From Methanomassiliicoccus luminyensis B10 (GTDB taxonomy: Archaea > Thermoplasmatota > Thermoplasmata > Methanomassiliicoccales > Methanomassiliicoccaceae), in NCBI RefSeq assembly GCF_000308215.1, contig NZ_CAJE01000012.1, positions 434,001-498,000 of the forward strand: 64,000 nt of DNA, written 5' to 3'. The notes under the pieces are model-generated. The model searched no databases, was not told where the DNA came from, and worked only from the letters and a program-made list of their open reading frames with translations. Below, piece by piece: positions 28,884 through 45,956 of the stretch. Made by a program: the position numbers and the translations under genes. How positions within the stretch are numbered: the first letter of the stretch is position 1; each line of letters starts with the position of its first letter.

Positions 28884-29570
28884 TTACCTTCCTTCCCGGC
28901 CGGAGGGACGATGTCTTCCGCGGGTCGGGCGCCTTTCCATGCCGCAGAGCGATCCCGGAACGAAGCTCCTGCCGCCCTTCGCGCCTGCGATCGTCTCGGC
29001 CGGGTCGTTCCATTTCTTCGATCTGCATCTGGGGCAGGACTTGGGAAGCGCGTCCCCGTACAGCTTCCATTCGTGCCCGCATCTGGCGCATTTTCCTAGC
29101 GAGATCATCTTATCCCACCGAGAGGATCTGCACGCGGGGCATGATGTGGGCGGGGACGACCTCGGCCTCCAGGTGTGGCCGCATTTCCTGCATGTGCACT
29201 GTCGGCTGAGCGACATCCATTTGGTGGACTTGCACGACGGGCACCTCTTCGGGGACGGAGATCTGGATATCCACGAGTATCCGCATAGGTGGCATTCGAA
29301 TGAGTGGTACCCAATCTCGACCCATGTCGACATCCCGCAATGGGGACATCGCTCATCGCTACTCACCCAAGTGGTCCCGCAATCTGCGCATGTACGTTGC
29401 TCCAAGGCCGCCTCCGACCACCGTCCACTGTGGCACTTCGGACAGCGCTTCGGCGGATGGCTGCCCTTGGACAGCCAGGTATGGCCGCACCTGCCGCAGT
29501 GGAGGGTCCTGGCGCCTACGTTTTGGGACGGCCCGGGAAGATCACAGGAGAGCCGACCATCCACCATCAT
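28884..29570 (-). CDS. Tandem zinc-ribbon protein (about five ribbons)
   Basis: 228 residues. Repeated units of the form C-x2-CG-x-TW ... CP-x-C-x-S-x-x-W: CGRCGHTWLS/CPKCHSGRW, CADCGTTWVS/CPHCGMSTW, CHLCGYSWIS/CPSCKSTKW, CRKCGHTWRP/CPACRSSRW and CARCGHEWKL/CPRCRSKKW. No enzyme domain or membrane segment. It could bind DNA, RNA or proteins and may regulate the operon. The ATG overlaps the stop of the ATPase gene (ATGA). The basic tail (MERRPTRGRHRPSGREGR) is consistent with nucleic acid binding. Confidence 0.85.
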   Translation of the reverse strand: MMVDGRLSCDLPGPSQNVGARTLHCGRCGHTWLSKGSHPPKRCPKCHSGRWSEAALEQRTCADCGTTWVSSDERCPHCGMSTWVEIGYHSFECHLCGYSWISRSPSPKRCPSCKSTKWMSLSRQCTCRKCGHTWRPRSSPPTSCPACRSSRWDKMISLGKCARCGHEWKLYGDALPKSCPRCRSKKWNDPAETIAGAKGGRSFVPGSLCGMERRPTRGRHRPSGREGR

Positions 29571-30370
29571 ACAGCCCCAACCTTGTATCTTTTCGGCAGG
29601 ATGTAGATCTCCCCGTCGGCATCCGTGCCCACGCGCGCTTCCACCTCGTACACGTCGCGGACGAGGTCCTCGGTTATCACCGTCTTGGGATCCCCGATAT
29701 TGACGATCTCCCCCCTCCTCATGATGATGCAGGTGTCACAGTACCTCGCCATCAGCGATATGTCGTGCTCCGCCACCAGGACGGTCATGTCCGTCTTCGA
29801 CATGGCCTGCAGATATTCCATCACCTGCAGCTTGTATTTCATGTCAAGATGCGACGTCGGCTCGTCGACTAGCATCAGCTTCGGCTCCTGGACGTATGCC
29901 TTGGCGATCATGGCGCGCTGGCGTTCCCCGGAGGACAGCGTGGACACGTGATTGTGCCTGAGCTGGTCTATCCCGAACGTGCGGAGCGCCTTGCGGACGA
30001 TCATTTCGTCGTCCTTGGTCTCCCACCATATCCTGTTCCCGTACGGGTACCTGCCGAGCATGACCATCTCCATCACGGTCATGCCGAAGGTCGGCCCCGA
30101 TTCCGCGGGGACGGAGGCAACGAGCTTGGATATCTCCGAAGGTCTCAGCCCGGCGATGTCCCTGCCGGCCACGTGGATCGATCCAGAGGTCACGCCATGT
30201 ATCTTGGAGATGCACTTCATCATCGTGGACTTGCCGCACCCGTTCGGGCCTATCAGGCCGACCATGAGACCCCTGGCCAGGTCCAGGTTGATATCCTTAA
30301 GCGCCTCGAACCCGTCGAAGCTCTTATGAAGCCCTTTGATGCTCAGCGCCGCCTCATCCATTATACTCAC
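29567..30370 (-). CDS. ABC transporter ATP-binding protein (BtuD/FecE family)
   Basis: 267 residues. Walker A GPNGCGKST near residue 40, Q-loop region in VASVPAESGPTFG, signature LSSGERQRAMIAKAYVQEP, Walker B LMLVDEPTSHLD and switch His in VLVAEHD. The pattern is that of cobalamin/Fe-siderophore importers. The C-terminus has the family's TEDLVRDVYEVEARV segment. It overlaps the permease gene by 17 bases and is cytoplasmic, powering the FecCD permease. Confidence 0.95.
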   Translation of the reverse strand: MSIMDEAALSIKGLHKSFDGFEALKDINLDLARGLMVGLIGPNGCGKSTMMKCISKIHGVTSGSIHVAGRDIAGLRPSEISKLVASVPAESGPTFGMTVMEMVMLGRYPYGNRIWWETKDDEMIVRKALRTFGIDQLRHNHVSTLSSGERQRAMIAKAYVQEPKLMLVDEPTSHLDMKYKLQVMEYLQAMSKTDMTVLVAEHDISLMARYCDTCIIMRRGEIVNIGDPKTVITEDLVRDVYEVEARVGTDADGEIYILPKRYKVGAV

Positions 30371-31502
30371 GTCCTTTCTTCATGAGCATGTAGGCAAAGA
30401 CCGGTGTACCGATCATTGCCGTTATCGCTCCCACGGGGAGCTCCAGCGGAGATATGACTGTTCTGGCCAGCAGGTCGGCGAACAGCATGAGCATGGCCCC
30501 CAATACGATGGATGCCGGCATGATCAGCCTATGGTCCCCTCCGAGCGCCATCCTGCAGGCGTGAGGGATAACGAGCCCCACGAAGCCGATGATGCCGACG
30601 AACGCCACGCAGACCGCCGTGAGCACGGACGCCACGACCATCATCGATCTCTTGAACCTCCGGACGTTCAGGCCGAGCTGCTGGGCCTGTTCCTCCCCGT
30701 TTATGAACAGGTTGAACTCCCGGGCCCACAGCATGGCGATCAAGGAGATCCCCATCGCCGGCACGAACACGATCCAGGCGTTCTCCCAGGTGATGTTGGC
30801 GAACGACCCGAAGAGCCACCACATCGCGTCGGTGAGGTAGTCTTTTCCCAATGACAGGAATATCGTCTGGACCGACGAGAAGGCAAAGCCCACTATCACT
30901 CCGGCGAGGATGTAATTGGTGGACGACCCCCCGGAACCTTCGGCGACGGTCATGGTCAGGGCGAAGGCCACGAGACCGCCCACTATGGCGGCCAGAGGTA
31001 TGACGTACAATGAGCCGTTCCCGAGGAACGGCACCGTCGCTCCCAATGCGATGACCGCGACGGCGGCGCACCCTGCTCCGGATGATACTCCGGTGATGTA
31101 GGGGTCCACCAACGGGTTCCTTATGATAGCCTGGTACATGCATCCCGCGATGGCCAGGCCCGCGCCGACCCCGATGGCGGCGATCGCCCTCGGCAACCTC
31201 GCCACATATATGTACAGCTCGACGGTGTTGAGGTTATTTCCGCCCTTCATCAGCGCTGAGAACATCGCCGCGACGGCATCCGTGACCGGGATGATCCCGC
31301 CGGACGATATCGAGATGGATATCAGGAAGGCGACCAGCGCCATCAGGGCGCCGAACACCGTGATCACGATGAAGCGCCGTTTCTTGACATCGACATCGAA
31401 GACCTCATCCTCAGCGGGGGCGGCCCTCCTTTTCCTCGTTTTACGGGCGCCGCCCCTGCCCCCTTCGCCCTTTCCTCTCTTCAGTTTATCCAACGGAATC
31501 AC
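30354..31502 (-). CDS. ABC transporter permease (FecCD/BtuC family)
   Basis: 382 residues with about ten membrane helices. Family motifs: RLPRAIAAIGVGAGLAIAGCMYQAIIRNPLVDPYITGVSSGAGCAAV and GLVIPHACRMALGGDHRLIMPASIVLGAMLMLFADLLAR. It imports corrinoids, heme or ferric chelates. A GTG start with a good Shine-Dalgarno (ttgaggtg) follows one base after the stop of the propeller gene. The N-terminal 45 residues are strongly basic (KRGKGEGGRGGARKTRKRR), longer than usual. Confidence 0.93.
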   Translation of the reverse strand: MIPLDKLKRGKGEGGRGGARKTRKRRAAPAEDEVFDVDVKKRRFIVITVFGALMALVAFLISISISSGGIIPVTDAVAAMFSALMKGGNNLNTVELYIYVARLPRAIAAIGVGAGLAIAGCMYQAIIRNPLVDPYITGVSSGAGCAAVAVIALGATVPFLGNGSLYVIPLAAIVGGLVAFALTMTVAEGSGGSSTNYILAGVIVGFAFSSVQTIFLSLGKDYLTDAMWWLFGSFANITWENAWIVFVPAMGISLIAMLWAREFNLFINGEEQAQQLGLNVRRFKRSMMVVASVLTAVCVAFVGIIGFVGLVIPHACRMALGGDHRLIMPASIVLGAMLMLFADLLARTVISPLELPVGAITAMIGTPVFAYMLMKKGREYNG

Positions 31503-31503
31503 C

Positions 31504-33390
31504 TCAATAGTATTTTCGCAAGAACAGGAAGCAAGCTATGACGAACACCAAGAGCGCGAGCCACGACCAATGGTATAGGCCATTCTCGAGGACGATCTCC
31601 CCGCTGTCGCCGTATATCTTGCCCGCCACCTCGGATATGCAGTAGACCGCACCGTAGTCGTTGCCGACGTAGATCTTCCCGTCAATGACCGTGGGGGAGA
31701 CCATCGAGTACGAGTCCGCGGAGAAGGGAGTGAGCTGCAGCCTCCATATCTCGCTGCCATCTTCGGCGTCGATCGCCATCACCGCGCCGCCGGTGGGATA
31801 GAACGTCCCCGCCGAGTAGTCCATGGCGTAGAGTACACCGTCCGCTAGCGTCAAGGACGCCTTTATCATCTGGTACGCCTGGCTGGTCCAGACGACCCTC
31901 CCCTGGAGGTCGAACTTGTATATCGCGGAGACCGCATCGGACCCCGTCCCGTCGGCGCCCCTGAGCTTGGACGAGCCGGAACTCAGCGGAGATATGTACG
32001 CGTAAAAGCCGTCCTCGACCGCCACGGGATGATTGCATAGGACGTCCAGCTTCCAATCGTATTCGGAGCCGTCCGCGCCCTTCCCTGTGGCCGCATCGAT
32101 AGAGATCACGTACCCCGTCAGCGACGACAGGCCCCCATCAGAGCAGCATACGATGAGCTTTCCTTCGCGCGTCACCGCGATGCTGCCCGCGGAACCGGGG
32201 GTTCCGGGGTGCGGCTTGTTTTCATCCCTCAGGTCTATGACCTTCTGGACCCATATCTCCTTTCCGGTGGAAGCATCCAATGCGTGGACGTTGCCCCCGT
32301 AGCTGCCGATGAACAGCATGCGCACGCCGTCCACATCGGCGATCACTGGGGGATGGTAGTAGAAGCAGCCCCTGGTGCCCGAATAATCGCCCTTGGAGCC
32401 CGTGGCCGGCGGGTCATAGTCCCAGAGCAATGAGAACTTTTTCTCAGGGGTCAGGGAATAGCACAACACGCGGCCGTCCGAGGTGCCGAAATATATCGCT
32501 CCCGAATCGTAGACCGGGGTGGTCCCGCCGGTGAGGAAGGTCCTGCCGTTCCAGATGATGTCGCCGTTGCCGTCCACGGGATAGCTCATCTCCAGTTTGA
32601 GCGTGTCCAGGAGCGTCCCGTCGTAGCGGTCCAGGCAGTACACATCACCATTGGTGGCGGTTATGACGAGCGTGTCCCCGACGATGAGCGGCGTGGTCAC
32701 CTCGTAGCCCTGTCCGTATGCGTAATGGAACTCCCAGACCAGTTCTCCGGTGTATCTGTCGAGGCAGTACACCCAGGGGTCCCGGTCAGAGCCCGCGGCG
32801 CCGTATGATCCCCCCGTGGTGTGGTAGAGGAGGCCCCCGGCCACTACGATCTCGGAGTCCACGAACCCCGTGGAGTACGTCTTGTACCATTCGGGGGGAA
32901 CGAGCGCGCCCACCGTCCCGTACGAATCAGACACGCTGGATGACGACGAGTCCCCGCCGGCGGATATCCATGCCGTGGGTTCGTCAGGCGTCTCCGCCGG
33001 GGTGATGGACCCATCGGGATAGAAGCCGATGGCGAAAGTCCCCCCATCATACTGCCCCCCCATGGCCTCTCCCGGCATCCAGGCCCCGTTCCCGGCATCC
33101 CAGACATACAAGTTCCACCGGCAGGTCTGGTCCCCCACGGAGTGCTCGGCCAGGCCGCCGACGGCGGTGATGCCGGACCCGGACACGGACACGCTCAGGC
33201 CCAGCTTGCCCGCGCAATCCTGGGCCACCGACGCATACGATCCCTGGGCGGATATGTCGCACCAGTAAGTGGTGCCGTTGCCCATGTCTATGAGCAGCTT
33301 CCCGTCCCCCGCATCGGCCGTCGTCATCGGGAGAACGGGTACCATCACCATTAGAAGCACGGCGGCGACCGCCAGCGGCAATGCCTTCAT
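31504..33390 (-). CDS. Membrane-anchored PQQ beta-propeller protein with N-terminal DUF4430-like domain
   Basis: 628 residues. Signal peptide MKALPLAVAAVLLMVMVPVLP. A DUF4430-like domain follows (KLLIDMGNGTTYWCDISAQ...RWNLYVWDAGNGAWMPGEA, about residues 28-125); DUF4430 resembles the transcobalamin C-terminal domain. Then PQQ-type propeller blades: VYCLDRYTGELVWEF, VYCLDRYDGTLLDTL, VHALDASTGKEIWVQ and VMAIDAEDGSEIWRL. It ends in a membrane helix (HWSWLALLVFVIACFLFLRKYY). The ATG overlaps the stop of the binding-protein gene. Being operonic with BtuF/C/D-like genes, it is probably a ligand-capture or docking partner of the importer. Confidence 0.85.
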   Translation of the reverse strand: MKALPLAVAAVLLMVMVPVLPMTTADAGDGKLLIDMGNGTTYWCDISAQGSYASVAQDCAGKLGLSVSVSGSGITAVGGLAEHSVGDQTCRWNLYVWDAGNGAWMPGEAMGGQYDGGTFAIGFYPDGSITPAETPDEPTAWISAGGDSSSSSVSDSYGTVGALVPPEWYKTYSTGFVDSEIVVAGGLLYHTTGGSYGAAGSDRDPWVYCLDRYTGELVWEFHYAYGQGYEVTTPLIVGDTLVITATNGDVYCLDRYDGTLLDTLKLEMSYPVDGNGDIIWNGRTFLTGGTTPVYDSGAIYFGTSDGRVLCYSLTPEKKFSLLWDYDPPATGSKGDYSGTRGCFYYHPPVIADVDGVRMLFIGSYGGNVHALDASTGKEIWVQKVIDLRDENKPHPGTPGSAGSIAVTREGKLIVCCSDGGLSSLTGYVISIDAATGKGADGSEYDWKLDVLCNHPVAVEDGFYAYISPLSSGSSKLRGADGTGSDAVSAIYKFDLQGRVVWTSQAYQMIKASLTLADGVLYAMDYSAGTFYPTGGAVMAIDAEDGSEIWRLQLTPFSADSYSMVSPTVIDGKIYVGNDYGAVYCISEVAGKIYGDSGEIVLENGLYHWSWLALLVFVIACFLFLRKYY

Positions 33391-34757
33391 GCCGAGACCC
33401 CCCTGCTGTATTTGAGATAGTCGCGGTACGTGTCGTCGAAATATTTCGGGATCACGTCCAGCGGGTCCAGCGATATGAACTTCTCGGGGTTCAATATCTT
33501 GGCCATGAGCTCCGTCGCTTCCGCGAGCCTCGGCCCCGGCCTGGACAGTATGTCGTTCGCATCTCCGGAGAAGACATACACCTCCCCGTTCTGGAACGCG
33601 GGAGTGGCCTTCCACAATGGATCAAGGGAGTCTAGGAGGCGCTGGTATTCATCCTCCGTCGACACCGGGGTGCTCGACATGATCACGATCGCCTTCGGCT
33701 GCTTGGCATAGATCTGCTCCTTGGAGACCATGAACCATGACGAGGACTGCGAATCGAACGCTCCTACCCCTCCTGCGACAGAAATGACGTCAGACATGTA
33801 CGTCTGGGAACCGGCGGTCCACGGCGACGGGTCGGAGGACAGCGCGACGAAAACCCTTTTATCGGTCCTGCCGGCAATTCCCGAGACCACGTCCACCGCT
33901 GAGCGCAGTTCGCGATTCCCGGCGTTGGCGTTCTCCGAAAGCCCCAGGGCGCACCCCACGATCCATATGTTGTCGTACAGCGTGCCCAGGTCGGTCCCGT
34001 CGTAGAGGACCACGCAATTTATTCCGGACTTGCGTAGCTTATCGGCCATGGTAACATGCTCTCCCGTGCCGCCGTCGCAGAGGACCAGGTCCGGAGCGAG
34101 CTTGATTATCCATTCGTAGTTGGGGTCGGTGTATCCCCCGATGATCGATATGCGGCCGTCCTCCTTGGCGTCGACGATCTCCTGCGGGTAGTTGCTGTAC
34201 AGGTCCGTTCCGATGATGAGGCCGGCGCCGCCCACAAATGCCACCATCTCCGTCACCGACGGAGCCAGCGTGACCACCCTCAGCCCTTCCTCGCCGGCGG
34301 CGCTTCCGCGAGCATAGTTGTAATAGCTGTGCCCCGTGGCGTCCACGCCGGGGATCACGGTATCCGGACCGGACGCGCGCGCCCAGCATAAAATGTTATG
34401 CTCCGACGCGTCCACCGACGCCGGGTCCGCCTCGGCCCAGCCGTCCGTGGAGAGAGTGTAGAAAGCCCATTTTACACCGATGAGGTTTACCTGATCGTTC
34501 ACCGAGTACACGGTGCCGTCGTCCAGTATGCCACATTCATATCCTTGGATGTCGCAGGCAGCCTTGAGGGCGTCATAGCCGTTCATTCCCCCGGTGAACG
34601 TCATCTCCGTCCACACCACGTCCCAGTATCCGAAGTCGATGATCATCCCCTGCCTCTGGTCGGCGGATGATGCGGTGAACCCCAGCATCGGTATGGTCGC
34701 CAGGACCGCCACCGCGATGACGGCGGATGCGACGAGCTTGACCGTGATGGCGTTCAT
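33387..34757 (-). CDS. BtuF-like substrate-binding protein fused to a DUF4430-like domain
   Basis: 456 residues. Signal peptide (VASAVIAVAVLATIPMLGFTASS). Residues about 37-140 resemble DUF4430 (GMNGYDALKAACDIQGYE...WAFYTLSTDGWAEADPASV). Residues about 155-440 form a class III periplasmic-binding fold: RVVTLAPSVTEMVAFVGGAGLIIGTDLYSNYP, GGYTDPNYEWIIKLAPDLVLCDGG and VYVFSGDANDILSRPGPRLAEATELMAKIL. No lipobox Cys is evident. It delivers corrinoid, heme or metal chelate to the FecCD/BtuC permease. The N-terminal fusion is unusual and shared with other proteins of this locus. Confidence 0.88.
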   Translation of the reverse strand: MNAITVKLVASAVIAVAVLATIPMLGFTASSADQRQGMIIDFGYWDVVWTEMTFTGGMNGYDALKAACDIQGYECGILDDGTVYSVNDQVNLIGVKWAFYTLSTDGWAEADPASVDASEHNILCWARASGPDTVIPGVDATGHSYYNYARGSAAGEEGLRVVTLAPSVTEMVAFVGGAGLIIGTDLYSNYPQEIVDAKEDGRISIIGGYTDPNYEWIIKLAPDLVLCDGGTGEHVTMADKLRKSGINCVVLYDGTDLGTLYDNIWIVGCALGLSENANAGNRELRSAVDVVSGIAGRTDKRVFVALSSDPSPWTAGSQTYMSDVISVAGGVGAFDSQSSSWFMVSKEQIYAKQPKAIVIMSSTPVSTEDEYQRLLDSLDPLWKATPAFQNGEVYVFSGDANDILSRPGPRLAEATELMAKILNPEKFISLDPLDVIPKYFDDTYRDYLKYSRGVSA

Positions 34758-34761
34758 AGTC

Positions 34762-35619
34762 TCATGCCAGCAATGACGGGGGAATGTCTTCGGGAGTTAC
34801 GTCCCACTCAAAGCCTACGCTGTTCACCGAGGTTGTCTGACGGACCAGCGCGAAGTAACAGACCTTGGAGATGTCGAAACCGCCCATGACGGACTGGCTG
34901 TACACCCATTTATCCCCGTTCCAATGATACTGCGACCAGTATCTCCAGTCCTTTCCCACCCCCACGTCGGCGAGGCCGAAGAAGGACCATAGCCATCCGT
35001 TGGGAGTATTCTCCATGTCCATGTCGAGCTCCCAGCCGAGCCTCTCCGCTACATCCTGGAAAGCGTACGCCGCGTCAATGCCCTCGCCGCACACCCAGAA
35101 CCCGGCCTGCCTCTCCTCGGCGGTGAGGTAGGAGGTCACGTGGCTGTTGGCATTGTAATCTTCATCGAACTTGATGAAGAACCATACTTTTTGTGCTATG
35201 GAGAAATCGGGAGCGGTGTACGAAGTTTTTCCGTCCTTGATCTCCACATCAGACAGCATCAGGGCGATGTGCGTGCGGCCATTCAGTACGATGGCATCGT
35301 TCACGGACGATAGCGGGGACCATTTCGCTTTCGACCATGTCCACATGACCCACTTCTGATCCTCCCCGGCCATCACGCCGTCAACGGAGGAAACTTGGCC
35401 CGCGGAGTTGAACACCACGTTCTCGATTGCGTTGTCGAACAGCTCCCTCAACGAGGAACCCTGGGCCTTTTTCTCAACTTTTTCCCCGTCCAGCATATAA
35501 TAAACGGTGACCCTGTCGTCGACGGCGGGGTCCTCATTATTACCGGTGTCCCCATCGTTAAGGTTCCCTATCACAACATAGACGAGAGCCCCCGAAACCA
35601 TGAGGGCCGCTATCACCAA
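34762..35619 (-). CDS. Secreted protein with two DUF4430-like domains; N-terminus probably frameshifted
   Basis: 285 residues from a TTG codon. One domain has SSLRELFDNAIENVVFNSAGQVSSVDGVMAGEDQKWVMWTWSKAKWSPLSSVNDAIVLNGRTHIALML. A second follows (about residues 150-265, GIDAAYAFQDVAERLGWELDMDMENTPNGWLWSFFGLADVGVGKDWRYWSQYHW). The frame opens inside a hydrophobic helix. An ATG at 35642 with agGCGGG upstream would read MDKK and stop, but one extra A in the A6 run (35631-35636) would join it to ITIALVIAALMVSGALVYVV, giving a normal signal peptide. First gene of the leftward operon. Ligand unknown. Confidence 0.8.
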   Translation of the reverse strand: MVIAALMVSGALVYVVIGNLNDGDTGNNEDPAVDDRVTVYYMLDGEKVEKKAQGSSLRELFDNAIENVVFNSAGQVSSVDGVMAGEDQKWVMWTWSKAKWSPLSSVNDAIVLNGRTHIALMLSDVEIKDGKTSYTAPDFSIAQKVWFFIKFDEDYNANSHVTSYLTAEERQAGFWVCGEGIDAAYAFQDVAERLGWELDMDMENTPNGWLWSFFGLADVGVGKDWRYWSQYHWNGDKWVYSQSVMGGFDISKVCYFALVRQTTSVNSVGFEWDVTPEDIPPSLLA

Positions 35620-35741: not shown

Positions 35742-35760
35742 ATTGGATGGATAATCCAAT
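35742..35760. promoter_or_regulatory. Operator palindrome 1
   Basis: ATTGGAT-GGATA-ATCCAAT, a perfect 7-bp inverted repeat with a 5-bp spacer. It abuts the upstream side of the leftward TATA element, a place where a bound regulator would affect TBP/TFB. Confidence 0.7.
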
Positions 35761-35770
35761 ATTAATATGA

Positions 35771-35789
35771 GTTGGATATTGCATCCAAC
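35771..35789. promoter_or_regulatory. Operator palindrome 2
   Basis: GTTGGAT-ATTGC-ATCCAAC, same architecture as palindrome 1. Its centre lies 29 bp from that of palindrome 1, close to three helical turns, which would place two bound dimers on one face. It also lies about 20 bp upstream of the candidate small RNA promoter. Confidence 0.7.
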
Positions 35790-36052: not shown

Positions 36053-36071
36053 ATTGGATGTTACATCCAAT
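36053..36071. promoter_or_regulatory. Operator palindrome 3
   Basis: ATTGGAT-GTTAC-ATCCAAT, identical arms to palindrome 1. It overlaps the end of the rightward TATA-like cttattatattgg (36045-36057) and the predicted transcript start of the gene at 36106, the typical site of a repressor. Confidence 0.7.
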
Positions 36072-36105: not shown

Positions 36106-38184
36106 ATGATAGCATCAATTTGGAGAAAAACGGCTGCCATCGGCATGGTGGTCGCCATCATGGTCATGGCAATACCATTGATGGATCTCAATGCGGCGGC
36201 TGATGAAGAAGACTATTGGTTCTACGTTGACCTAACGCCTGACTATGAGCTGAACGGCGAGTGGATCCAAGGTACCGGGCCGACCCCGGCCGAGGCATTC
36301 ATCAATGCTGTGAACGCTAGATATGGCGCAGAGAACAACGATATCGATCCAAGTGGTTGGATAACTAAGGTCGACGGTTTAGCTACAGAAGGTGTTTGGG
36401 GAGGTACCTGGGAGTACTTTAACTGGGCCCATTTTGGATATGTTGATGGCGTGTTCGATCTCGATGCGCACCTAATGGGGGGAGCGAAGCCAACTACCAA
36501 CAATCAATATGCGATTTTCAGGACCCAGTACGTATGGGTTGAGATAATCTCGTATGAGGGCGCTAGTACTCTAACTGAAGCGGAGGTCCTCGGAACCGCC
36601 GAGTACGGTGATGCTGCCACATGGCCGCAGGTCATGGGCCCTGTTCCTGATGACTACACCCCTAAAGCTGTCTCCGCCACCTATGACGGAACCGAGTGGA
36701 ATGTAGTATGGTATATCCTTCCTAACGCCCAGCTCAACCATGTTGACGAGTATGCTAAACTTACCGTTCCGGCATATGGATACGCGCAGCGGGATGAAGC
36801 GGCGGGGTTGGAGCCCTATGTCCCCGGAATATCCACAGACTTCATCACCGACGTCACCAGAGGCTACGCCCCACTGACGGTGCAGTTCACTGACAGGACC
36901 TTGGACGCCGGGGATTGGCAGTGGGACTTCGGCGACGGGACCAGCAGCACAGACCAGGATCCTTCGCACACATACAGCACGCCGGGCAGATACACCATTA
37001 CTCTGACCACGACCAATGCCGGCGGCAACCACAATGCGAGCAGGACCGTGACTGTGGAGCAGGCGACCGAACCCGGTGCCCCCACCAATCTGGCGGCCGC
37101 AGCCGGTGACAGCCAGGTCGTCCTGACCTGGAACGCTCCCGCGAACGACGGAGGCGCCTCGATATCCCACTATGTCGTCTATAAGGACGGCGTCAGCATC
37201 GGCACGTACACGGGGACCTCCGCTGCCATAACCGAGCTGACCAACGGCAACCAGTACAAGTTCACTGTCGCCGCCGTCAACTCGGTCGGAGAGAGCGAGA
37301 GGTCCAATGAGGCTACCGCTACACCGAACGATGATGTCGAGGGCTTCACACCGGATACGGAGTTCCAGGTGACCGCCACATCCGATGTCAATGGCAGATT
37401 GAGCGTCACGTATGATCCCACCGTACTGAGATTCATGTCGGCCACCGGCGCGACGAGCATCGTCAACACGGAGGGAGCGGCACATATTACAACCGCAGGC
37501 GCGAACGGACCGGTGGAAGTAAAGTTCGCGGTCGTAGAGAACGCACCGATCGGACTTACCACGGTCACCCTGAACGGGGAGAGCAAGGTCTTCAACATCG
37601 TTCCCGGCGAACCTGCGATCTACAGCTCCTTCGTGATCGTCGAGCAGGACGAAGCGCGGAACATCGCGAACGTGTCTCTCTATAAGGTCTCCCAGATCGC
37701 CGGGTTCAAGCTGGTGTTCCACTACGACAGCGGCACTCCAGTCATGAACGATCTGGCCGGGCTCGGCTCCAGGGGCAGCGTTTCCACGGCGGTCGACGAA
37801 GCGGGTAAGACCATCACCGTGGTCTGGGCCAGTTCGGACAATGTCAACTTGAAAGGCATATTGTTCTCGATCAGCGGCGCCAGCGGCCTTGCGCTGTCGC
37901 CGGCCGAGGCCGATCTCAGGCACATCACGGATGACCTCAGTGTAAGCGTCCGAGTGGATGTCGGAGTAGCCAGCAGCTACGAGGACGCAGTGGCTCGTGA
38001 TCCCAACCCCAGTACGGACCTGAACAATGATGGAGCGACCGATCTCGCGGACCTCATCCTGCTGATGCAGCACCTCGCCGGTTATGAGGTGAGCATCGAC
38101 GGGGACAACGCGGACCTCGATGGCGATGGGGTCGTGGACATCCGTGACGCGATAGTCCTGCAGGACCTCATAACCGTGGCATGA
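36106..38184 (+). CDS. Secreted DUF4430-PKD-FN3-dockerin protein
   Basis: 692 residues. Signal peptide about 1-31; DUF4430-like domain about 35-148; PKD 244-318 (APLTVQFTDRTLDAGDWQWDFGDGTSS); fibronectin III 323-407. A beta-rich module spans 413-500 and a cohesin-like beta-sandwich 501-620 (VSLYKVSQIAGFKLVFHYDSG, ILFSISGASGLALSP). A type I dockerin occupies 636-692 with two calcium loops, DLNNDGATDLADLILLMQHL and ADLDGDGVVDIRDAIVLQDL. No membrane anchor, so the dockerin is the likely means of retention, presumably on the cohesin of the 44034 protein. Shine-Dalgarno gggagaagg precedes the ATG. Operator palindrome 3 overlaps its promoter. Confidence 0.9.
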   Translation: MIASIWRKTAAIGMVVAIMVMAIPLMDLNAAADEEDYWFYVDLTPDYELNGEWIQGTGPTPAEAFINAVNARYGAENNDIDPSGWITKVDGLATEGVWGGTWEYFNWAHFGYVDGVFDLDAHLMGGAKPTTNNQYAIFRTQYVWVEIISYEGASTLTEAEVLGTAEYGDAATWPQVMGPVPDDYTPKAVSATYDGTEWNVVWYILPNAQLNHVDEYAKLTVPAYGYAQRDEAAGLEPYVPGISTDFITDVTRGYAPLTVQFTDRTLDAGDWQWDFGDGTSSTDQDPSHTYSTPGRYTITLTTTNAGGNHNASRTVTVEQATEPGAPTNLAAAAGDSQVVLTWNAPANDGGASISHYVVYKDGVSIGTYTGTSAAITELTNGNQYKFTVAAVNSVGESERSNEATATPNDDVEGFTPDTEFQVTATSDVNGRLSVTYDPTVLRFMSATGATSIVNTEGAAHITTAGANGPVEVKFAVVENAPIGLTTVTLNGESKVFNIVPGEPAIYSSFVIVEQDEARNIANVSLYKVSQIAGFKLVFHYDSGTPVMNDLAGLGSRGSVSTAVDEAGKTITVVWASSDNVNLKGILFSISGASGLALSPAEADLRHITDDLSVSVRVDVGVASSYEDAVARDPNPSTDLNNDGATDLADLILLMQHLAGYEVSIDGDNADLDGDGVVDIRDAIVLQDLITVA

Positions 38185-38221
38185 GGAGCGGGGTGAGTTC
38201 AGACGATCGAGAAGATATTTA

Positions 38222-38268
38222 GAGGCTCGGCCTCAGGCGGTGGCTCCGGCCACCGCCAATCGTTTACC
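38222..38268 (+). repeat. Duplicated double-hairpin element, copy 1
   Basis: GAGGC-tcg-GCCTC is followed one base later by a perfect 9-bp stem GGCGGTGGC-tccg-GCCACCGCC and then aatcgtttacc. The same 47 bases recur after the next gene at 43828-43874. It lies 38 bp after the stop codon, between co-oriented surface genes, and no T-tract follows. It may be a processing, stability or partial termination element. Confidence 0.85.
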
Positions 38269-38390
38269 ATAACAATGTCCGAGCGGAGCTCAGGACCGCA
38301 GAGAAATCATCACATGCGAAGACAGGGCAGAACACACTGGGCAACGATCGCCCGGTTCAGGAAATAAGAAGAGAACTGAGGAGGAATAAG

Positions 38391-41300
38391 ATGACAGAAC
38401 ACAAAGTCGAAACAGTGCTCATATCATTGATACTGTTCGTTAGTATCATCGCTCCACTGGTCGCTGTCGATCTAGGCAGCGCCGCGAGCGATTGGCCCAG
38501 CGTACCGGGGAACAATGAGAATCCCTGGATCTCGGATGCATTGTCCCCCACTATCGATGAAGATCTCGCCATCAAGTGGAGCGTTATCGGGGCTACGTCG
38601 GGCATGAGCGGATGGGAAGTCCCCAGTACGGCGATTACGGTGGGCGACTATGCCTATTATTATGATCAGCTCAATAAAAAGCTAATGAAAGTCCACATCG
38701 AGGACGGCGCAGAGGCGGCTTCCGCGCCCCTGACGGCTAGCGGGTATAACTTGCCAGTAACCTATGGCAACGGCAAATTGTTCGTGCCCATGATCAATTC
38801 CAAAGTCAGCATCTACGACGCGGACACGATGGAAAAGATAGGGACCACGGATACGAAGTTAACGAAATGGAACGGCATGCAGGGACCCGTGACATATTAT
38901 GATGAATACATATATCTCGGGACCTACGGCAGCACATATCCTGGTATCGACTTCGCGTGCTTCCATGATAACGGCACATTGGCATGGTCGTTGGACGGCG
39001 GAGGCTGGGGATACTCACTGGCCCCCCAGTTCATCGAGGTCGGCGATAAGACCTACTGCGTAGTAGCCTCTAAAGGCTACGGGCAAGCAGGGATCACCGA
39101 CGGAGGTTCCACAATCTATGTCCTGGACCCTGCCACTGGATATGAGTATAGCAGGGTAAAGATCAGCGATGAATACAACCAGGGAGGCATCTCGCATTAC
39201 GAAGGCCGCATATATGTGGCCACCCAGAACGATGCCGCGACGGCCACTCACATACATTCATATGTCGTGGGAGCGGACGGCTCACTGTCCGACGAGAAGG
39301 TCTGGACCTCCAGCCTCACCGGTGGCACCCAGAGCGCGCCGGTGATCTACAACGACCGCATCTACCTCGGAAGCGGCGGGGCCACCATGGGCGCCAACAG
39401 GAACATCGAGGTCATCAGCATCGGCAGCGACGGCAGCATGACCTCGGTATACGACATACCAATAAAAACGAAGGGTACGCTCACCCTGACAACCGCGTAT
39501 GCCACCGCCGAGAACGACTACACTGTCTACCTGTATGTCACGCCGTACGACGGCACGAGCACAAACCCAGACATATACATCATTAAAGACAGCGCACATC
39601 AGACGGCCGCGCATTACAAGGGGATCGAGCTGCCCGGAGAGGGGGACCAGTACTCCTTCAACAGTGTGACCATATCCAGCCAGGGGTATCTCCTGTTCAA
39701 GAGCGACGTAGCTCTGTGGTGCGTGGAGGCGGTACGCGAAGAGTCCACACCAGGTACGGAGTTCCAGGTGTCCGCTTCGTCCGATGCCGATGGAAAACTG
39801 ATCGTCACGTACAATCCCTCTGCATTGAGGTTCGTATCGGCCACTGGTGCGACGAACATCGTCACTGCTGAAGGAACGATCACCATCACGACAGCGGGCG
39901 CGAACGGACCGGTGGACGTAACGTTCGAGGTCGTGGAGGACCCGCTTGTAGGACCTACTAAGGTAACCTTGAATGGGGCCGATGAGGTCTTCAAGATCGT
40001 TCCTAGGACCTTCGCACCCGGCATTCCCACCAACCTGGCGGCCGCCGCCGGCAATGGCCAGGTCACCCTGACCTGGAACGCCCCCGAGAACAATGGGGGC
40101 GAGGCGATAAGAGGATACATCATATACGTGAACGGCTACAAGTTCAGCACTTACACCGTCGGCGAGTACAACGAGACCGCAACAACCATAACCGGGCTGA
40201 CCAACGGCAGAGAATATACTATCACCATATCTGCCTTCAACCCGACGGGGGAGAGCGGCAGGTCCGTCGAGATCAAGGCTACGCCGACCGATGTGGTGAT
40301 CGTTCCTGAGGTCCCCAGTGCCCCCACCAATCTGGCGGCCGCAGCCGGTGACAGCCAGGTCGTCCTGACCTGGAACGCTCCCGGCAGCAACGGGGGCGCC
40401 GCGATCACTCACTACGTCGTCTACCGGGACGGCACCAAGATCGACGGCATGTTCACCGGGACGACAGCGACCGTAACCGGGTTGACCAACGGCAACCAGT
40501 ACAAGTTCACTGTCGCCGCCGTCAACTCGGTCGGAGAGAGCGAGAGGTCCAATGAGGTCTCGGCCACGCCGGTCGCTCCGGCCTCCACTTACACTTATAA
40601 AATAAGCGGAGGCACAGTGGAGATCACCAAATATACTGGGTCAGGAGGCATAGTGGAGATACCCAGCACGATCGAGGGATTGCCCGTTACTGCCATCGGC
40701 ACCAACGCGTTCCAGAACAAGGCCACTCTGACCTCGGTCACGATACCGGACAGCGTGACCAGCATCGGCACCCAGGCATTCATGGGATGCTCTGGCCTTA
40801 TCTCGGTGAGCATAGGCAGTGGTGTGACTAGCATCGGGACCAACGCATTCTACAAGTGCGCCGCCCTGACCTCCGTTACCATCCCGAGCAAAGTGATCAG
40901 CATCGGTACCAATGCGTTCCGGGACTGTACCGCCCTGACCGAGATCAACGTTGACGCCGACAACACCGCATTCAAAAGTGTCGATGGCGTGGTGTACAAC
41001 AAGACCGTAACCACCCTGATACTGTGTCCTGCGGGATGGTCCGGTTCGCTGACCATACCTAGCAGCGTGACCAGCATCGGCGACAGCGCGTTCATGGGCT
41101 GTGCCGGCCTGACCGAGGTGATAATGCTAAGCAGTGTGACCAGCATCGGAACAGGTTCGTTCAACGGTTGCACTGGCCTGACCTCGATCGCGATACCAGG
41201 CAGTGTTACGAGCATCGGGAACAACGCGTTCAGCGGATGCACCAAGCTGGCCGCGGTAACGATACCGAACAGCGTCATTAGTATCGGGACTAGCGCGTTC

Positions 41301-43796
41301 AGCGGATGCACCAAGCTGGCTTCGGTCACCATAGGCAGTGGTGTGACCAGCATCGGAGACTACATGTTCCGGTATTGCTACGCCCTGACCTCGGTCATTA
41401 TCCCGAACAACGTGAACACCATCGGCAATAACGCGTTCCAAGGGTGCAACAACCTGACCACAGCGACAATAGGCAGTGGTGTGAACAAGATCAGCAACAG
41501 CGCGTTCAGCGGATGCACCAAGCTGGCCGAGATCATCGTTGACGCCGACAACGCAGTATACAGAAGCGTAGAGGGCATAGTATACAACAAGACCGTAACC
41601 ACTCTGATACTGTGTCCTGCGGGATGGTCCGGTTCGCTGACCATACCTAGCAGCGTGACCAGCATCGGCGACAGCGCGTTCAGCGGATGCACCAAGCTGG
41701 CCGCGGTAACGATACCGAATGGCGTGATCACCATCGGCGAAGACGCATTCACCGGCTGTATCGGTTTGACCACGGTCACTATTCCAAGCAGCGTGACCAC
41801 CATAGGTGAAGATGCGTTCACTGGCTGTACCGCCCTGGCCGAGATCATCGTTGACGCCGACAACGCAGTATACAGAAGCGTAGAGGGCATAGTATACAAC
41901 AAGACCGTAACCACTCTGATACTGTGTCCTGCGGGATGGTCCGGTTCGCTGACCATACCTAGCAGCGTGACGAGTATCAATAGCGAAGCGTTCCTTGGCT
42001 GCACCGGTCTGACCTCGGTCACGATACCGGGCAGTGTGACCAGCATCGGCGCGAAAGCGTTCCAAGAGTGCACCGCCCTGGCATCTGTCACGATAGGCAA
42101 CGGGGCCGGCACCACCATCGGCACGCAAGCGTTCTCCTACTGCCCGGTCCTGAGCATAGTGACCATAGGCAGTGGTGTGACTAGCATCGGGAACAGTGTG
42201 TTCAGGGACTGCCCCGCCCTGACCTCGATCGTCATACCGAACAGCGTGACCAGCATCGGTACCAATGCGTTCGCATACTGCACCGGCCTGACATCGGTCA
42301 CAATCGGCAACGGGGTCGCCAGCCTTGGACAATACACATTCCAAGGGTGCACCGCCCTGGAAAGACTGGTCATAGGCAGTGGCATGATCAGCATCGGCAA
42401 CGACGTGTTCTATGGATGTACCGGTCTGATCACGGTCACGATACCGAACAGCGTGACCGGCATCGGGAACAACGCGTTCTACGGATGTACCGGTCTGACC
42501 AAGGTCATCATAGGCAGTGGTGTCACTACCATCGGCAGCTCTTTCTCCGGCTGCACCGCCCTGACCACCGTGGTGTTCACCGGCAATGCACCGACATCGG
42601 TCAGCAGCGCTTGGGTCAGAAATGTTCCCAATCCGGTAGTTCACTACCATCTGGGTGCCGAAGGGTTCACCACGCCGACCTGGAATAACGTCGCGTGCTA
42701 TCCTCTGGCCATACCTGATTTCGAGGCCGACGTAACTTCGGGCAACGCCCCGCTGACGGTGCAGTTCACCGACAAGAGCCTAGGCGCCGCATCGGTGCAA
42801 TGGGACTTCGGTGACGGAACCACCAGCACCGCCTGGGACCCGTCGCATACGTACAGTGCACCGGGCACATACACGGTCACCCTGACCACGATAAATGCCG
42901 GTGGTGGCAGCACCCAAACCACCATGACCGTGACCGTGATCGCGCCGCCCGTAGAGTTGCCCGTAGGGACCGAGGTCATGGTGTCTGCTTCGTCCGATGC
43001 CGATGGAAAACTGATCGTCACGTATGACCCCACCGTACTGAGGTTCGTATCGGCCACTGGTGCGACGAACATCGTCACTGCTGAAGGAACGATCACCATC
43101 ACGACAGCGGGCGCGAACGGACCGGTGGACGTAACGTTCGCGGCATTGGCGAACCTGGGACCTACCACGGTCACCCTGAACGGGGAGAGCAAGGTCTTCA
43201 ACATCGTTCCCGGCGAACCTGCGAGCTATAGCTCGTTCGTAATCGTAGAACAGGACGGCCAGCAGAACACCGCGGATGTCTCGCTCTACAAGGTCCCCAA
43301 AGTCGCCGGCTTCAAGCTGGTGTTCCACTACACTGGCGGAACTCCGGTCGTTAGCGACCTGGCCGGGCTCGGTGCCAAGGGTATCTTCTCGACAGCGGTC
43401 GACGAGGTTGGCAAGACGATAACCATAGTATGGGCCAGTTCGAGGAACATGGTCCCGAGCGGCATCTTGTTCTCGATCAGCGGAGCTGACGGCCTGACAC
43501 TATCGCCGGCCGATGCCGAGCTCAGGTACATCGCGGACGATGTAAGTGTCAGTATCCAGGTGATCGTCGGAGTGGCCAGCAGCTACGAGGACGCTGTGAG
43601 TCAGGATCCCAACCCCGCTCCCGCCGCTGACCTGAACGGGGATGGGGAGACGAACCTCGCGGACCTCATCCTGCTGGTGCAGTTCCTTGCCGGTAACGAG
43701 GTGAACATCGACGAGGACAGCGCGGACCTCGATGGCGACGGGATAGTGGACATTCGTGACGCGATAGCCCTGCAGGAGATCATAACCGTGGCATGA
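38391..43796 (+). CDS. Giant secreted propeller-FN3-LRR-PKD-dockerin protein
   Basis: 1801 residues. Signal peptide about 1-28; beta-propeller-like domain about 30-455, very similar to that of the 44034 protein; a beta-rich module about 458-541. Two FN3 domains span about 541-730 and BspA-type LRRs about 755-1415 (some 25 units such as SVTSIGTNAFYKCAALTSVTIP). PKD about 1443-1522, the beta-rich module again about 1525-1608, and a cohesin-like beta-sandwich about 1609-1728. The C-terminal dockerin (1746-1801) has DLNGDGETNLADLILLVQFL and ADLDGDGIVDIRDAIALQEI. Likely an adhesin docked on the membrane-held cohesin. A Shine-Dalgarno (gaggagg) precedes the ATG. Long exact DNA repeats occur inside the LRR part. 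Confidence 0.92.
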   Translation: MTEHKVETVLISLILFVSIIAPLVAVDLGSAASDWPSVPGNNENPWISDALSPTIDEDLAIKWSVIGATSGMSGWEVPSTAITVGDYAYYYDQLNKKLMKVHIEDGAEAASAPLTASGYNLPVTYGNGKLFVPMINSKVSIYDADTMEKIGTTDTKLTKWNGMQGPVTYYDEYIYLGTYGSTYPGIDFACFHDNGTLAWSLDGGGWGYSLAPQFIEVGDKTYCVVASKGYGQAGITDGGSTIYVLDPATGYEYSRVKISDEYNQGGISHYEGRIYVATQNDAATATHIHSYVVGADGSLSDEKVWTSSLTGGTQSAPVIYNDRIYLGSGGATMGANRNIEVISIGSDGSMTSVYDIPIKTKGTLTLTTAYATAENDYTVYLYVTPYDGTSTNPDIYIIKDSAHQTAAHYKGIELPGEGDQYSFNSVTISSQGYLLFKSDVALWCVEAVREESTPGTEFQVSASSDADGKLIVTYNPSALRFVSATGATNIVTAEGTITITTAGANGPVDVTFEVVEDPLVGPTKVTLNGADEVFKIVPRTFAPGIPTNLAAAAGNGQVTLTWNAPENNGGEAIRGYIIYVNGYKFSTYTVGEYNETATTITGLTNGREYTITISAFNPTGESGRSVEIKATPTDVVIVPEVPSAPTNLAAAAGDSQVVLTWNAPGSNGGAAITHYVVYRDGTKIDGMFTGTTATVTGLTNGNQYKFTVAAVNSVGESERSNEVSATPVAPASTYTYKISGGTVEITKYTGSGGIVEIPSTIEGLPVTAIGTNAFQNKATLTSVTIPDSVTSIGTQAFMGCSGLISVSIGSGVTSIGTNAFYKCAALTSVTIPSKVISIGTNAFRDCTALTEINVDADNTAFKSVDGVVYNKTVTTLILCPAGWSGSLTIPSSVTSIGDSAFMGCAGLTEVIMLSSVTSIGTGSFNGCTGLTSIAIPGSVTSIGNNAFSGCTKLAAVTIPNSVISIGTSAFSGCTKLASVTIGSGVTSIGDYMFRYCYALTSVIIPNNVNTIGNNAFQGCNNLTTATIGSGVNKISNSAFSGCTKLAEIIVDADNAVYRSVEGIVYNKTVTTLILCPAGWSGSLTIPSSVTSIGDSAFSGCTKLAAVTIPNGVITIGEDAFTGCIGLTTVTIPSSVTTIGEDAFTGCTALAEIIVDADNAVYRSVEGIVYNKTVTTLILCPAGWSGSLTIPSSVTSINSEAFLGCTGLTSVTIPGSVTSIGAKAFQECTALASVTIGNGAGTTIGTQAFSYCPVLSIVTIGSGVTSIGNSVFRDCPALTSIVIPNSVTSIGTNAFAYCTGLTSVTIGNGVASLGQYTFQGCTALERLVIGSGMISIGNDVFYGCTGLITVTIPNSVTGIGNNAFYGCTGLTKVIIGSGVTTIGSSFSGCTALTTVVFTGNAPTSVSSAWVRNVPNPVVHYHLGAEGFTTPTWNNVACYPLAIPDFEADVTSGNAPLTVQFTDKSLGAASVQWDFGDGTTSTAWDPSHTYSAPGTYTVTLTTINAGGGSTQTTMTVTVIAPPVELPVGTEVMVSASSDADGKLIVTYDPTVLRFVSATGATNIVTAEGTITITTAGANGPVDVTFAALANLGPTTVTLNGESKVFNIVPGEPASYSSFVIVEQDGQQNTADVSLYKVPKVAGFKLVFHYTGGTPVVSDLAGLGAKGIFSTAVDEVGKTITIVWASSRNMVPSGILFSISGADGLTLSPADAELRYIADDVSVSIQVIVGVASSYEDAVSQDPNPAPAADLNGDGETNLADLILLVQFLAGNEVNIDEDSADLDGDGIVDIRDAIALQEIITVA
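40995..41093 (+). repeat. LRR-region DNA repeat, diverged copy
   Basis: 99 bases that match 41583-41681 with one visible mismatch (c at 41015 against t at 41603), offset 588 bp, a multiple of three. They encode the KTVTTLILCPAGWSGSLTIP segment and the start of the next LRR unit. Confidence 0.85.
41523..41659 (+). repeat. LRR-region DNA repeat, exact copy A
   Basis: 137 bases identical to 41835-41971 (period 312 bp, exactly 104 codons). They encode an island between LRR blocks (AEIIVDADNAVYRSVEGIVY, then KTVTTLILCPAGWSG). Identity at silent positions indicates recent duplication or conversion. Confidence 0.9.
41835..41971 (+). repeat. LRR-region DNA repeat, exact copy B
   Basis: Second exact copy of the 137-base unit at 41523-41659, in the same frame and orientation. 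Confidence 0.9.
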
Positions 43797-43827
43797 AGGA
43801 CGTGAGCTCGAAGGGCTAAACATCTTT

Positions 43828-43874
43828 GAGGCTCGGCCTCAGGCGGTGGCTCCGGCCACCGCCAATCGTTTACC
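43828..43874 (+). repeat. Duplicated double-hairpin element, copy 2
   Basis: Same 47 bases as 38222-38268, located 32 bp after the stop of the giant dockerin gene. Both hairpins, including the TCCG tetraloop, are unchanged. The following sequence is also related (gagcgga...ctcggag against gagcggagctcagga). Confidence 0.85.
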
Positions 43875-44033
43875 TCGAAGGTCCCGAGCGGATCTCGGAG
43901 CTATGGAGAATCAGATACATGCTAAAACAGAGCAGAACGTTCCGAGCGATGACCACGCCCCCCATGGTCACTCTCGTGCTCAATGTAAATACGCAGTTCA
44001 GGACAAGAGAAGAATTTGAAAAGGAGGATTCTT

Positions 44034-45956
44034 ATGACAAAGCACAATGATAGAGCGGCGATCCTGTCGCTGATACTGGCCGCATGTTTCATCGCTCCGC
44101 TGTTCGCTGCCGGCCAGAGCAGCGCCGCGAGCGATTGGCCCAGCGTACCGGGAAGCAACGAAAGCCCCTGGATCTCGGATGCATTGTCCCCGACGATCGA
44201 TGATGGTCTCGCCATCAAGTGGAGCGTTATCGGAACTACGTCTGGGATGAGCGGATGGGAAGTCCCCAGTACGGCGATTACGGTGGGTGACTATGCCTAT
44301 TATTATGACCTCCTCGCAAAGAAATTATTGAAAGTCAACATCGAGGACGGCACGGAAGTAGCTTCCGACGACCGGACCATAGTTGGGATGTACAATGTGC
44401 CGCTGACTTACGCCAACGGCAAATTGTTCGTGCCCCAATACAAGGCCGGTGTGGTTAATGTTCTGATCTACGACGCGAACACAATGGAAAAGATCGGGGA
44501 AACGCCGTCGTCCAACAGGCTGCTTAAGGGGAACGGCATGCAGGGGCCCGTGACCTACTACGACGGGCGCATCTACCTCGGGACCTACGGCGGCACCGCC
44601 GTGGGCATGGACTTCGCGTGCTTCACCGAGAACGGCGAATACGTGTGGGGAATGGACGGCGGGAGCTGGGGATACGTGATGATCCCACAGTTCATCGAGG
44701 TCGGCGATAAGACCTACTGCGTAGTAGCCTCCAAAGGCTACGGGCAAGCAGGTGTCACCGACGGAGGCTCTACGGTTTACGTCCTGGATCCAGCCACCGG
44801 GCAGGAATACAGCCGGGTTAAGATCAGCGACGAATACGTACAGGGAGGCATCTCCAGCTACGAGGGCCGCGTGTATGTGGCAACCCAGAACGATGTCGCG
44901 TCGGTCACGCATATACACTCTTATGTCGTAGGAGCGGACGGCTCGCTGTCAGATGAGAAGGTCTGGACCTCTAGCCTCACCGGCGGAACGCAAAGTGTAC
45001 CGGTGATCTACAACGACCGCATCTACCTCGGAAGCGGCGGGGCCACCATGGGCGCCAACAGGAACATCGAGGTCATCAGCATCGGCAGCGACGGCAGCAT
45101 GACCTCGGTATACAATATACCGATCAAAACGAAGAGCTCGCTCTCTCTGACCACCGCCTATGCCACCGCCGAGAATGACTATGCTGTCTACCTGTACTGC
45201 ACGCCGTACGACGGCATGGATGACAATCCAGAGGTATGTATTATTAAGGACAGCGCACATCAGACGGTCGCGAAGTATAAGGAGATAGAGCTGCCCGGCG
45301 AAGGGGACCAGTACTCCTTCAACAGCGTGACCATATCTGGTCAGGGATATCTCCTGTTCAAGAGCGACGTAGCTCTGTGGTGCGTGGAGGCAGTACACGA
45401 AACGGACCCCATATTGAGAGCTTCGTCCGTTTCGGGCACAGTGGGCGATACGGTCACCGTCAATGTCAGCATCGAGAACAATCCAGGGATCCTGGGCAGC
45501 GTGCTCAATGTGACATATGATCCCAACGTGCTCGAAGTACTATCCGCGAAGGCGGGGAATATCAGTTCCAACGTGCTATTCTATGCCAACACGGAGGAAC
45601 CGGGCAAGGTCAAGATGAGCTGGTTGCCCAGCGAGGGAGTCTACACTGACGGCTCGATAATGGTGATCGAGTTCAAGATAAAAGAGACGACGGCAGGGTC
45701 TACATCGATATCGATCAAGGACGGTGGAACGTCCGATCTGGACAAGAACCTCATCTCTGCACGGATCGTCAACGGGACCGTCACGATCGCCTCCACGCCG
45801 CCGGCTGAGAATCCTTCGACGGACGATGACGCCCCAAAGTCGAACGACGACCCGCTGCTCATCGCGATCACCCTGGTCGCCGCAATAGCGGTGATAGGGG
45901 CTGCGTTCGCCTTGTTCTGGAAAAAGAAGAGGAACGGCGGAATGACTCAGAAGTGA
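44034..45956 (+). CDS. Membrane-anchored propeller-cohesin protein (candidate scaffoldin)
   Basis: 640 residues from MTKHNDRAAILSLILAACFIAP, chosen over ATG 44016 because aaaggagg lies 7 bases before it. Signal peptide about 1-28; beta-propeller-like domain about 30-455, closely related to that of the 38391 protein. A cohesin domain follows, about 457-585 (SGTVGDTVTVNVSIENNPGI, NVTYDPNVLEVLSAKAGNIS, DGSIMVIEFKIKETTAGSTSI, NGTVTIA), then an acidic linker. A C-terminal helix with KKKR (about 605-632) fixes it in the membrane. It would present the cohesin at the surface to bind the dockerins encoded by the two genes upstream. Cohesin type and binding are inferred from sequence only. Confidence 0.9.
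   Translation: MTKHNDRAAILSLILAACFIAPLFAAGQSSAASDWPSVPGSNESPWISDALSPTIDDGLAIKWSVIGTTSGMSGWEVPSTAITVGDYAYYYDLLAKKLLKVNIEDGTEVASDDRTIVGMYNVPLTYANGKLFVPQYKAGVVNVLIYDANTMEKIGETPSSNRLLKGNGMQGPVTYYDGRIYLGTYGGTAVGMDFACFTENGEYVWGMDGGSWGYVMIPQFIEVGDKTYCVVASKGYGQAGVTDGGSTVYVLDPATGQEYSRVKISDEYVQGGISSYEGRVYVATQNDVASVTHIHSYVVGADGSLSDEKVWTSSLTGGTQSVPVIYNDRIYLGSGGATMGANRNIEVISIGSDGSMTSVYNIPIKTKSSLSLTTAYATAENDYAVYLYCTPYDGMDDNPEVCIIKDSAHQTVAKYKEIELPGEGDQYSFNSVTISGQGYLLFKSDVALWCVEAVHETDPILRASSVSGTVGDTVTVNVSIENNPGILGSVLNVTYDPNVLEVLSAKAGNISSNVLFYANTEEPGKVKMSWLPSEGVYTDGSIMVIEFKIKETTAGSTSISIKDGGTSDLDKNLISARIVNGTVTIASTPPAENPSTDDDAPKSNDDPLLIAITLVAAIAVIGAAFALFWKKKRNGGMTQK

Follow-up and report, generated by a model that had tools for sequence, protein, structure and literature searches.

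A membrane-anchored cohesin and two dockerin proteins beside a candidate corrinoid operator in the human-gut methanogen Methanomassiliicoccus luminyensis

Methanomassiliicoccus luminyensis B10 is an isolate from human faeces with a genome of 2.62 Mb (PMC5011839, PMC4153887). In the 64,000-nucleotide stretch analysed here (the window; positions 434001-498000 of contig NZ_CAJE01000012.1, our G000:C12), three forward-strand genes, P0001 (36106-38184), P0002 (38391-43796) and P0003 (44034-45956), form an array that encodes two dockerin proteins and a membrane-anchored cohesin protein. Genome-wide searches covered 2,620,233 bases on 26 contigs, and domains were assigned with the curated Pfam cut-offs (22.9 bits for Dockerin_1, PF00404, and 24.1 bits for Cohesin, PF00963). 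Combining these assignments with profile comparison, structure prediction and a search for shared regulatory sites, we propose a role for the array in corrinoid acquisition.

P0001 is a secreted protein with an unassigned N-terminal domain (residues 31-245), PKD and FN3 domains, two segments that we call module A (412-500) and the X module (501-620), and a type I dockerin (residues 636-692; 38011-38181, + strand). P0002 carries, in order, a propeller, module A, two FN3 domains, BspA-type leucine-rich repeats (LRRs), a PKD domain, another module A, an X module and a type I dockerin (residues 1745-1801; 43623-43793, + strand). The two dockerins had been proposed in a first-pass annotation made from the sequence alone, and both are confirmed by PF00404, which matches residues 637-686 of P0001 (29.8 bits, E value of 6.9e-7) and 1746-1795 of P0002 (30.1 bits, E value of 5.7e-7), and by the two calcium loops of each module, whose ten ligand positions (1, 3, 5, 9 and 12 of both loops) hold D or N throughout. 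As to the preceding segments, hhalign gave no support for the X module as a cohesin (3-5%) and found module A weakly cohesin-like (30% and 8% in two alignments); the FN3 and PKD controls scored about 1% or less. Another archaeon, G043, which matches Methanomassiliicoccaceae archaeon COG_1, has a protein with homology to P0001 over the X module and dockerin (33.5% over 182 residues, E value of 1e-15). No glycoside hydrolase domain was found by Pfam in P0001-P0003, in line with the first-pass annotation. The gaps before P0002 and P0003 hold copies of a 50-base stem-loop, GGCGGTGGCTCCGGCCACCGCC (window 38219-38268 and 43825-43874), that are 98% identical, which suggests either a tandem duplication or a common control element.

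The third protein, P0003 (+ strand), begins with a signal-like helix and combines a propeller, a cohesin and a C-terminal membrane anchor. Its cohesin (residues 464-585; 45423-45788, + strand) scores 79 bits against PF00963, far over the cut-off (E value of 5e-22), and a phmmer search of the Protein Data Bank returned solved cohesins (4ums, 2xdh, an entry named 'COHESIN', and 5nrk; best E value of 7e-7). It is the sole cohesin over the cut-off in the whole genome, with an additional weak match within P0002. The membrane helix (residues 608-626; 45855-45911, + strand) has a hydropathy of 2.74 over 19 residues and is followed by KKK. Both the cohesin and the helix thus stand as first annotated.

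The regulatory region in front of P0001 links the array to corrinoid genes. The gap between P0001 and a divergently transcribed importer operon contains three exact copies of the palindrome TTGGAT-N5-ATCCAA, found by pattern search at 35743-35759 (TTGGATGGATAATCCAA), 35772-35788 (TTGGATATTGCATCCAA) and 36054-36070 (TTGGATGTTACATCCAA), the last of them 35 base pairs (bp) ahead of the P0001 start codon. There are 18 exact sites in the genome, compared to roughly 0.16 expected from base counts and none for the reversed-pattern control. They fall into 15 regions, of which about 13 are corrinoid-linked according to gene calls and family searches. Genes adjoining them include those for precorrin-2 dehydrogenase with the hem operon, CbiL, CobD, CobT, CobN, CfbA, CbiC, CbiB, CobS, CobY, CbiT, CbiD, CbiQ, CobN again and the radical S-adenosylmethionine (SAM) enzyme CbpB; further regions hold a DUF4430 gene with an energy-coupling factor (ECF) transporter, two dockerin-tagged binding proteins that each have an operator in front of their gene, other importer operons and the cohesin-dockerin locus itself. 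The two regions with no corrinoid explanation contain an Lrp-like regulator and an alcohol dehydrogenase. Across the order Methanomassiliicoccales the motif occurs in 128 of 147 genomes, adding up to about 620 exact sites, while the control pattern matched twice, making it an order-wide candidate operator for corrinoid genes. Cobalamin boxes have been proposed earlier for archaea, and the energy metabolism of M. luminyensis depends on corrinoid methyltransferases. At the CbpB region (L085, G000:C12:515793), the operator precedes the gene of a CbpB-family (TIGR04163) radical SAM peptide-modifying enzyme, and a modified peptide may, on this evidence, belong to the regulon. A cluster of two LRR proteins and an ATP-binding cassette (ABC) gene (L090, G000:C17:14001-27000) has a site with one mismatch and may be another surface system belonging to the regulon. 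An Lrp-like gene on C3 and two Fur-like genes on C20 are close to operator sites.

The divergent operon (29567-35619, - strand) encodes a BtuFCD-type importer, with PF01497, PF01032 and PF00005 all matched within it. Nearest to P0001 lies a membrane-anchored protein (34762-35619) with two DUF4430-like halves, weakly assigned by profile and pattern, the C-terminal one related by hhalign to the P0001 N terminus. It is followed by P0004 (33387-34757), a fusion of a DUF4430-like domain (hhalign 57%, E value of 1e-4) with a Peripla_BP_2 substrate-binding domain (PF01497, 101 bits), a pyrroloquinoline quinone (PQQ)/BamB-like propeller protein (31504-33615, true start probably near 33390; PF13360, 89 bits), a FecCD/BtuC-type permease (30354-31502; PF01032, 283 bits) and a BtuD-like ABC ATPase (29567-30370; PF00005, 108 bits). 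Abundant BtuC has been reported in Methanomassiliicoccales (PMC10804542). That this importer carries corrinoid is suggested by its regulon and by the riboswitch association described below. BspA-type LRR proteins are also found near or inside such candidate corrinoid importer operons, at 27401-28879 of the window and at L204:10572-12248.

The propellers of P0002 (38478-39755, + strand) and P0003 (44121-45413, + strand) are 81% identical, so the shared domain noted at first pass is real, and the P0003 copy was modelled confidently by AlphaFold2 (predicted local distance difference test (pLDDT) score of 84, predicted template modelling score of 0.88). Its 50 best Foldseek matches are mainly BamB and PQQ dehydrogenases. 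P0003 alone as a query of genome contigs returned no loci, and an alignment of the propeller returned 24. Six complete archaeal loci begin with the propeller gene, followed by a DUF4430-like gene, a binding protein, a PQQ protein, FecCD and the ATPase. Fifteen bacterial loci were examined, those of Clostridium cadaveris, C. methylpentosum and Syntrophaceticus schinkii among them. In 11 of these the propeller gene is preceded, at a distance of 21-590 bp, by a cobalamin riboswitch (RF00174) on its own strand; in 3 more the riboswitch is about 6 kb away on the upstream side, and 1 locus has none. The next gene encodes DUF4430 (PF14478) in all four Clostridia-type loci tested, with an ABC-ATPase gene further downstream in several of the riboswitch loci; no LRR or cohesin match was seen within the same protein as the propeller in these loci. 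The M. luminyensis window contains no cobalamin riboswitch. The propeller family is thus found behind two unrelated controls, an operator in archaea and a riboswitch in bacteria, which ties it to cobalamin in two domains of life. Operons with riboswitch and propeller, mostly also with DUF4430 and ABC-ATPase genes (L187, L190, L192, L194 and L195), look like a B12 uptake system of Clostridia and their relatives that has not been described before.

Taken together, we consider that the products of the three genes probably form the outer, capturing part of a system for acquiring corrinoids (vitamin B12-type compounds), docked by cohesin-dockerin contacts beside the importer. Transcription from the P0001 promoter would extend to P0002 and P0003, and a regulator binding TTGGAT-N5-ATCCAA would switch these genes together with those for corrinoid biosynthesis and uptake. 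P0003 would be held by its C-terminal helix, with the cohesin close to the membrane and the propeller facing outward, and the secreted P0001 and P0002 would clip to that cohesin through their calcium-loop dockerins, placing extra propellers and binding arms (LRR, FN3 and PKD) next to the divergently encoded importer. Corrinoids may then be caught by the propellers or by transcobalamin-like domains, handed to the binding protein and imported through the FecCD permease and the ABC ATPase. The cohesins and dockerins of archaea have been described as vestiges or as puzzles lacking a function; here a specific function is proposed for them in a cultured human-gut methanogen. Calling the array a complete cohesin-dockerin system, as was done at first pass, is too strong a wording, as the pairing is one that we infer.

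Dockerin-like modules are also found beyond the array. The genome has four dockerin matches: P0001, P0002 and two ABC substrate-binding proteins in which the module is N-terminal, directly after the membrane helix, with FecCD-type permease genes nearby. These two modules score 27.4 bits, over the cut-off, and 18.5 bits, below it, and their first loop is degenerate (GNAN). Modules of this two-loop, dockerin-like kind, placed immediately behind the membrane helix of an ABC substrate-binding protein, are widespread in the order (L208-L227 and L046-L063), mostly in genomes where no cohesin was found. In a sample of 51 dockerin genes, 40 encode such an N-terminal, membrane-proximal module, a class that belongs to PF01497-type binding proteins (hhalign 97-99% for 33 sequences in three groups). 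An operator with at most one mismatch lies within 300 bp of 18 of these 40 genes (11 exact) compared to none of the other 11, where the chance per gene is about 0.0008. G043 has propeller proteins with C-terminal dockerins of 20.2 and 15.0 bits, both sub-cut-off, and the homologue of the P0001 X-dockerin pair there combines a sub-cut-off cohesin (22.6 bits) with the X module and a dockerin of 38.8 bits. Two adjacent membrane-anchored G043 proteins may hold divergent cohesins, judging from one weak Pfam match and one hhalign score of 49%. A broader model, in which one membrane cohesin recruits, through calcium-dependent dockerins, both the corrinoid-binding arms and the dockerin-tagged binding proteins of B12 importers, all under one order-wide corrinoid regulator, is tentative, and we would not yet favour it.

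Several observations weigh against the proposed capture system. No cohesin was found in 69 of the 86 genomes with a dockerin match, so that dockerin-like modules on binding proteins probably often work without one; with the degenerate first loop, this makes docking of the two tagged binding proteins to P0003 doubtful. In most relatives that have the operon of propeller and importer, Listeria-Bacteroides repeats take the place of cohesin or dockerin, so the function can do without docking. Neither P0002 nor P0003 has a separate operator, and no exact copy is present at the importer operons that were checked in other archaea, four of which carry a similarly placed site with 2-3 mismatches. The DUF4430 cargo ascribed to P0001 at first pass could not be upheld: there was no Pfam match to PF14478, and its N terminus compares at 91.8% by hhalign with one half of the 34762 protein but at 3.5% with DUF4430 directly, while its model (pLDDT of 43) is too poor for a fold search. 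BtuG (3DSM) is not among the 50 best Foldseek matches of the propeller, and on this fold search we rejected the seven-bladed BtuG family for it. The docking, the ligand binding and the hand-off are inferences.

It seems rather unlikely that the cohesin and the dockerin-like modules fail to pair with one another, acting instead as structural spacers and as folds that bind calcium. In favour of that reading, cohesin goes undetected in most genomes of the order that have a dockerin, and module A, ahead of the dockerins, itself resembles a cohesin weakly, but both dockerins keep the canonical calcium ligands and share one gene array with the cohesin, the X-dockerin pair is kept in G043, which has a sub-cut-off cohesin too, and binding between archaeal cohesins and dockerins was measured earlier, as stated in PMC9012536.

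A B12-regulated adhesive role of the LRR arm is possible. As an account of the locus, however, adhesion, with the LRR, FN3 and PKD arm holding the cell to a corrinoid-producing partner or a host surface and the regulon reflecting the source of corrinoid rather than its direct binding, is in our view unlikely. P0002 is dominated by BspA-type LRRs, as adhesins are, LRR proteins occur in or beside importer operons (window 27401-28879 and L204), and a rumen relative has a complete B12 transport system adjoining adhesin-like proteins (PMC10804542); yet it is the propeller, not the LRR, that is conserved with the importer and found behind cobalamin riboswitches in bacteria. The membrane-held, non-cellulolytic capture assembly of the first-pass annotation was right in shape, but its generic adhesion is less likely than corrinoid capture, given the three operators at the divergent importer and the propeller family behind cobalamin riboswitches. 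That the ligand is cobalt or another tetrapyrrole, such as an F430 precursor or haem, and the proteins serve general metal-chelate capture is improbable: the regulon does include haem and nickel-sirohydrochlorin (CfbA) genes and the cobalt-type ECF component CbiQ, and FecCD importers serve many chelates, but in bacteria cobalamin riboswitches precede the propeller family, in operons with DUF4430, the type of domain found at the C terminus of transcobalamins (PMC4350170).

A link between cohesin-dockerin modules and B12 acquisition appears to be new, as we found no report of one in the open literature searched. The cohesin and X-dockerin-like modular parts resemble those of the clostridial cellulosome, but no glycoside hydrolase, cellulose-binding module or multi-cohesin scaffoldin was found at the locus, and we rejected a cellulosome, with one over-cut-off cohesin in the genome and no hydrolase in P0001-P0003. 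Cohesin and dockerin in an archaeon, although real here, are not themselves new: according to PMC9012536, pairs are known in Archaeoglobus fulgidus and in anaerobic methanotrophic (ANME) archaea, the latter with dockerin-tagged ABC binding proteins. M. luminyensis is like these in being a non-cellulolytic archaeon that has cohesin and dockerin proteins, and in bearing dockerins on ABC binding proteins. Whereas the tagged ANME proteins named there are of the NikA/OppA and TroA types, its array and two tagged binding proteins share the corrinoid operator and adjoin BtuFCD-type importers. The importer operon in the window resembles systems in which DUF4430 or transcobalamin-type domains accompany ECF or ABC importers, having DUF4430-like domains itself, but P0001 is only indirectly related to them. 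A further parallel is offered by BtuG and BtuH, surface lipoproteins of Bacteroides that capture B12 (PMC6143338, PMC8941943): here too a surface propeller is encoded with a B12-type importer and would be expected to catch and hand over corrinoid. BtuG is seven-bladed, has been reported from Bacteroidetes alone and acts as partner of the outer-membrane protein BtuB, whereas the M. luminyensis propeller is BamB/PQQ-like, belongs to an archaeon without an outer membrane and would be attached through cohesin and dockerin. It is a member of a propeller family that both Bacteria and Archaea keep under cobalamin control.

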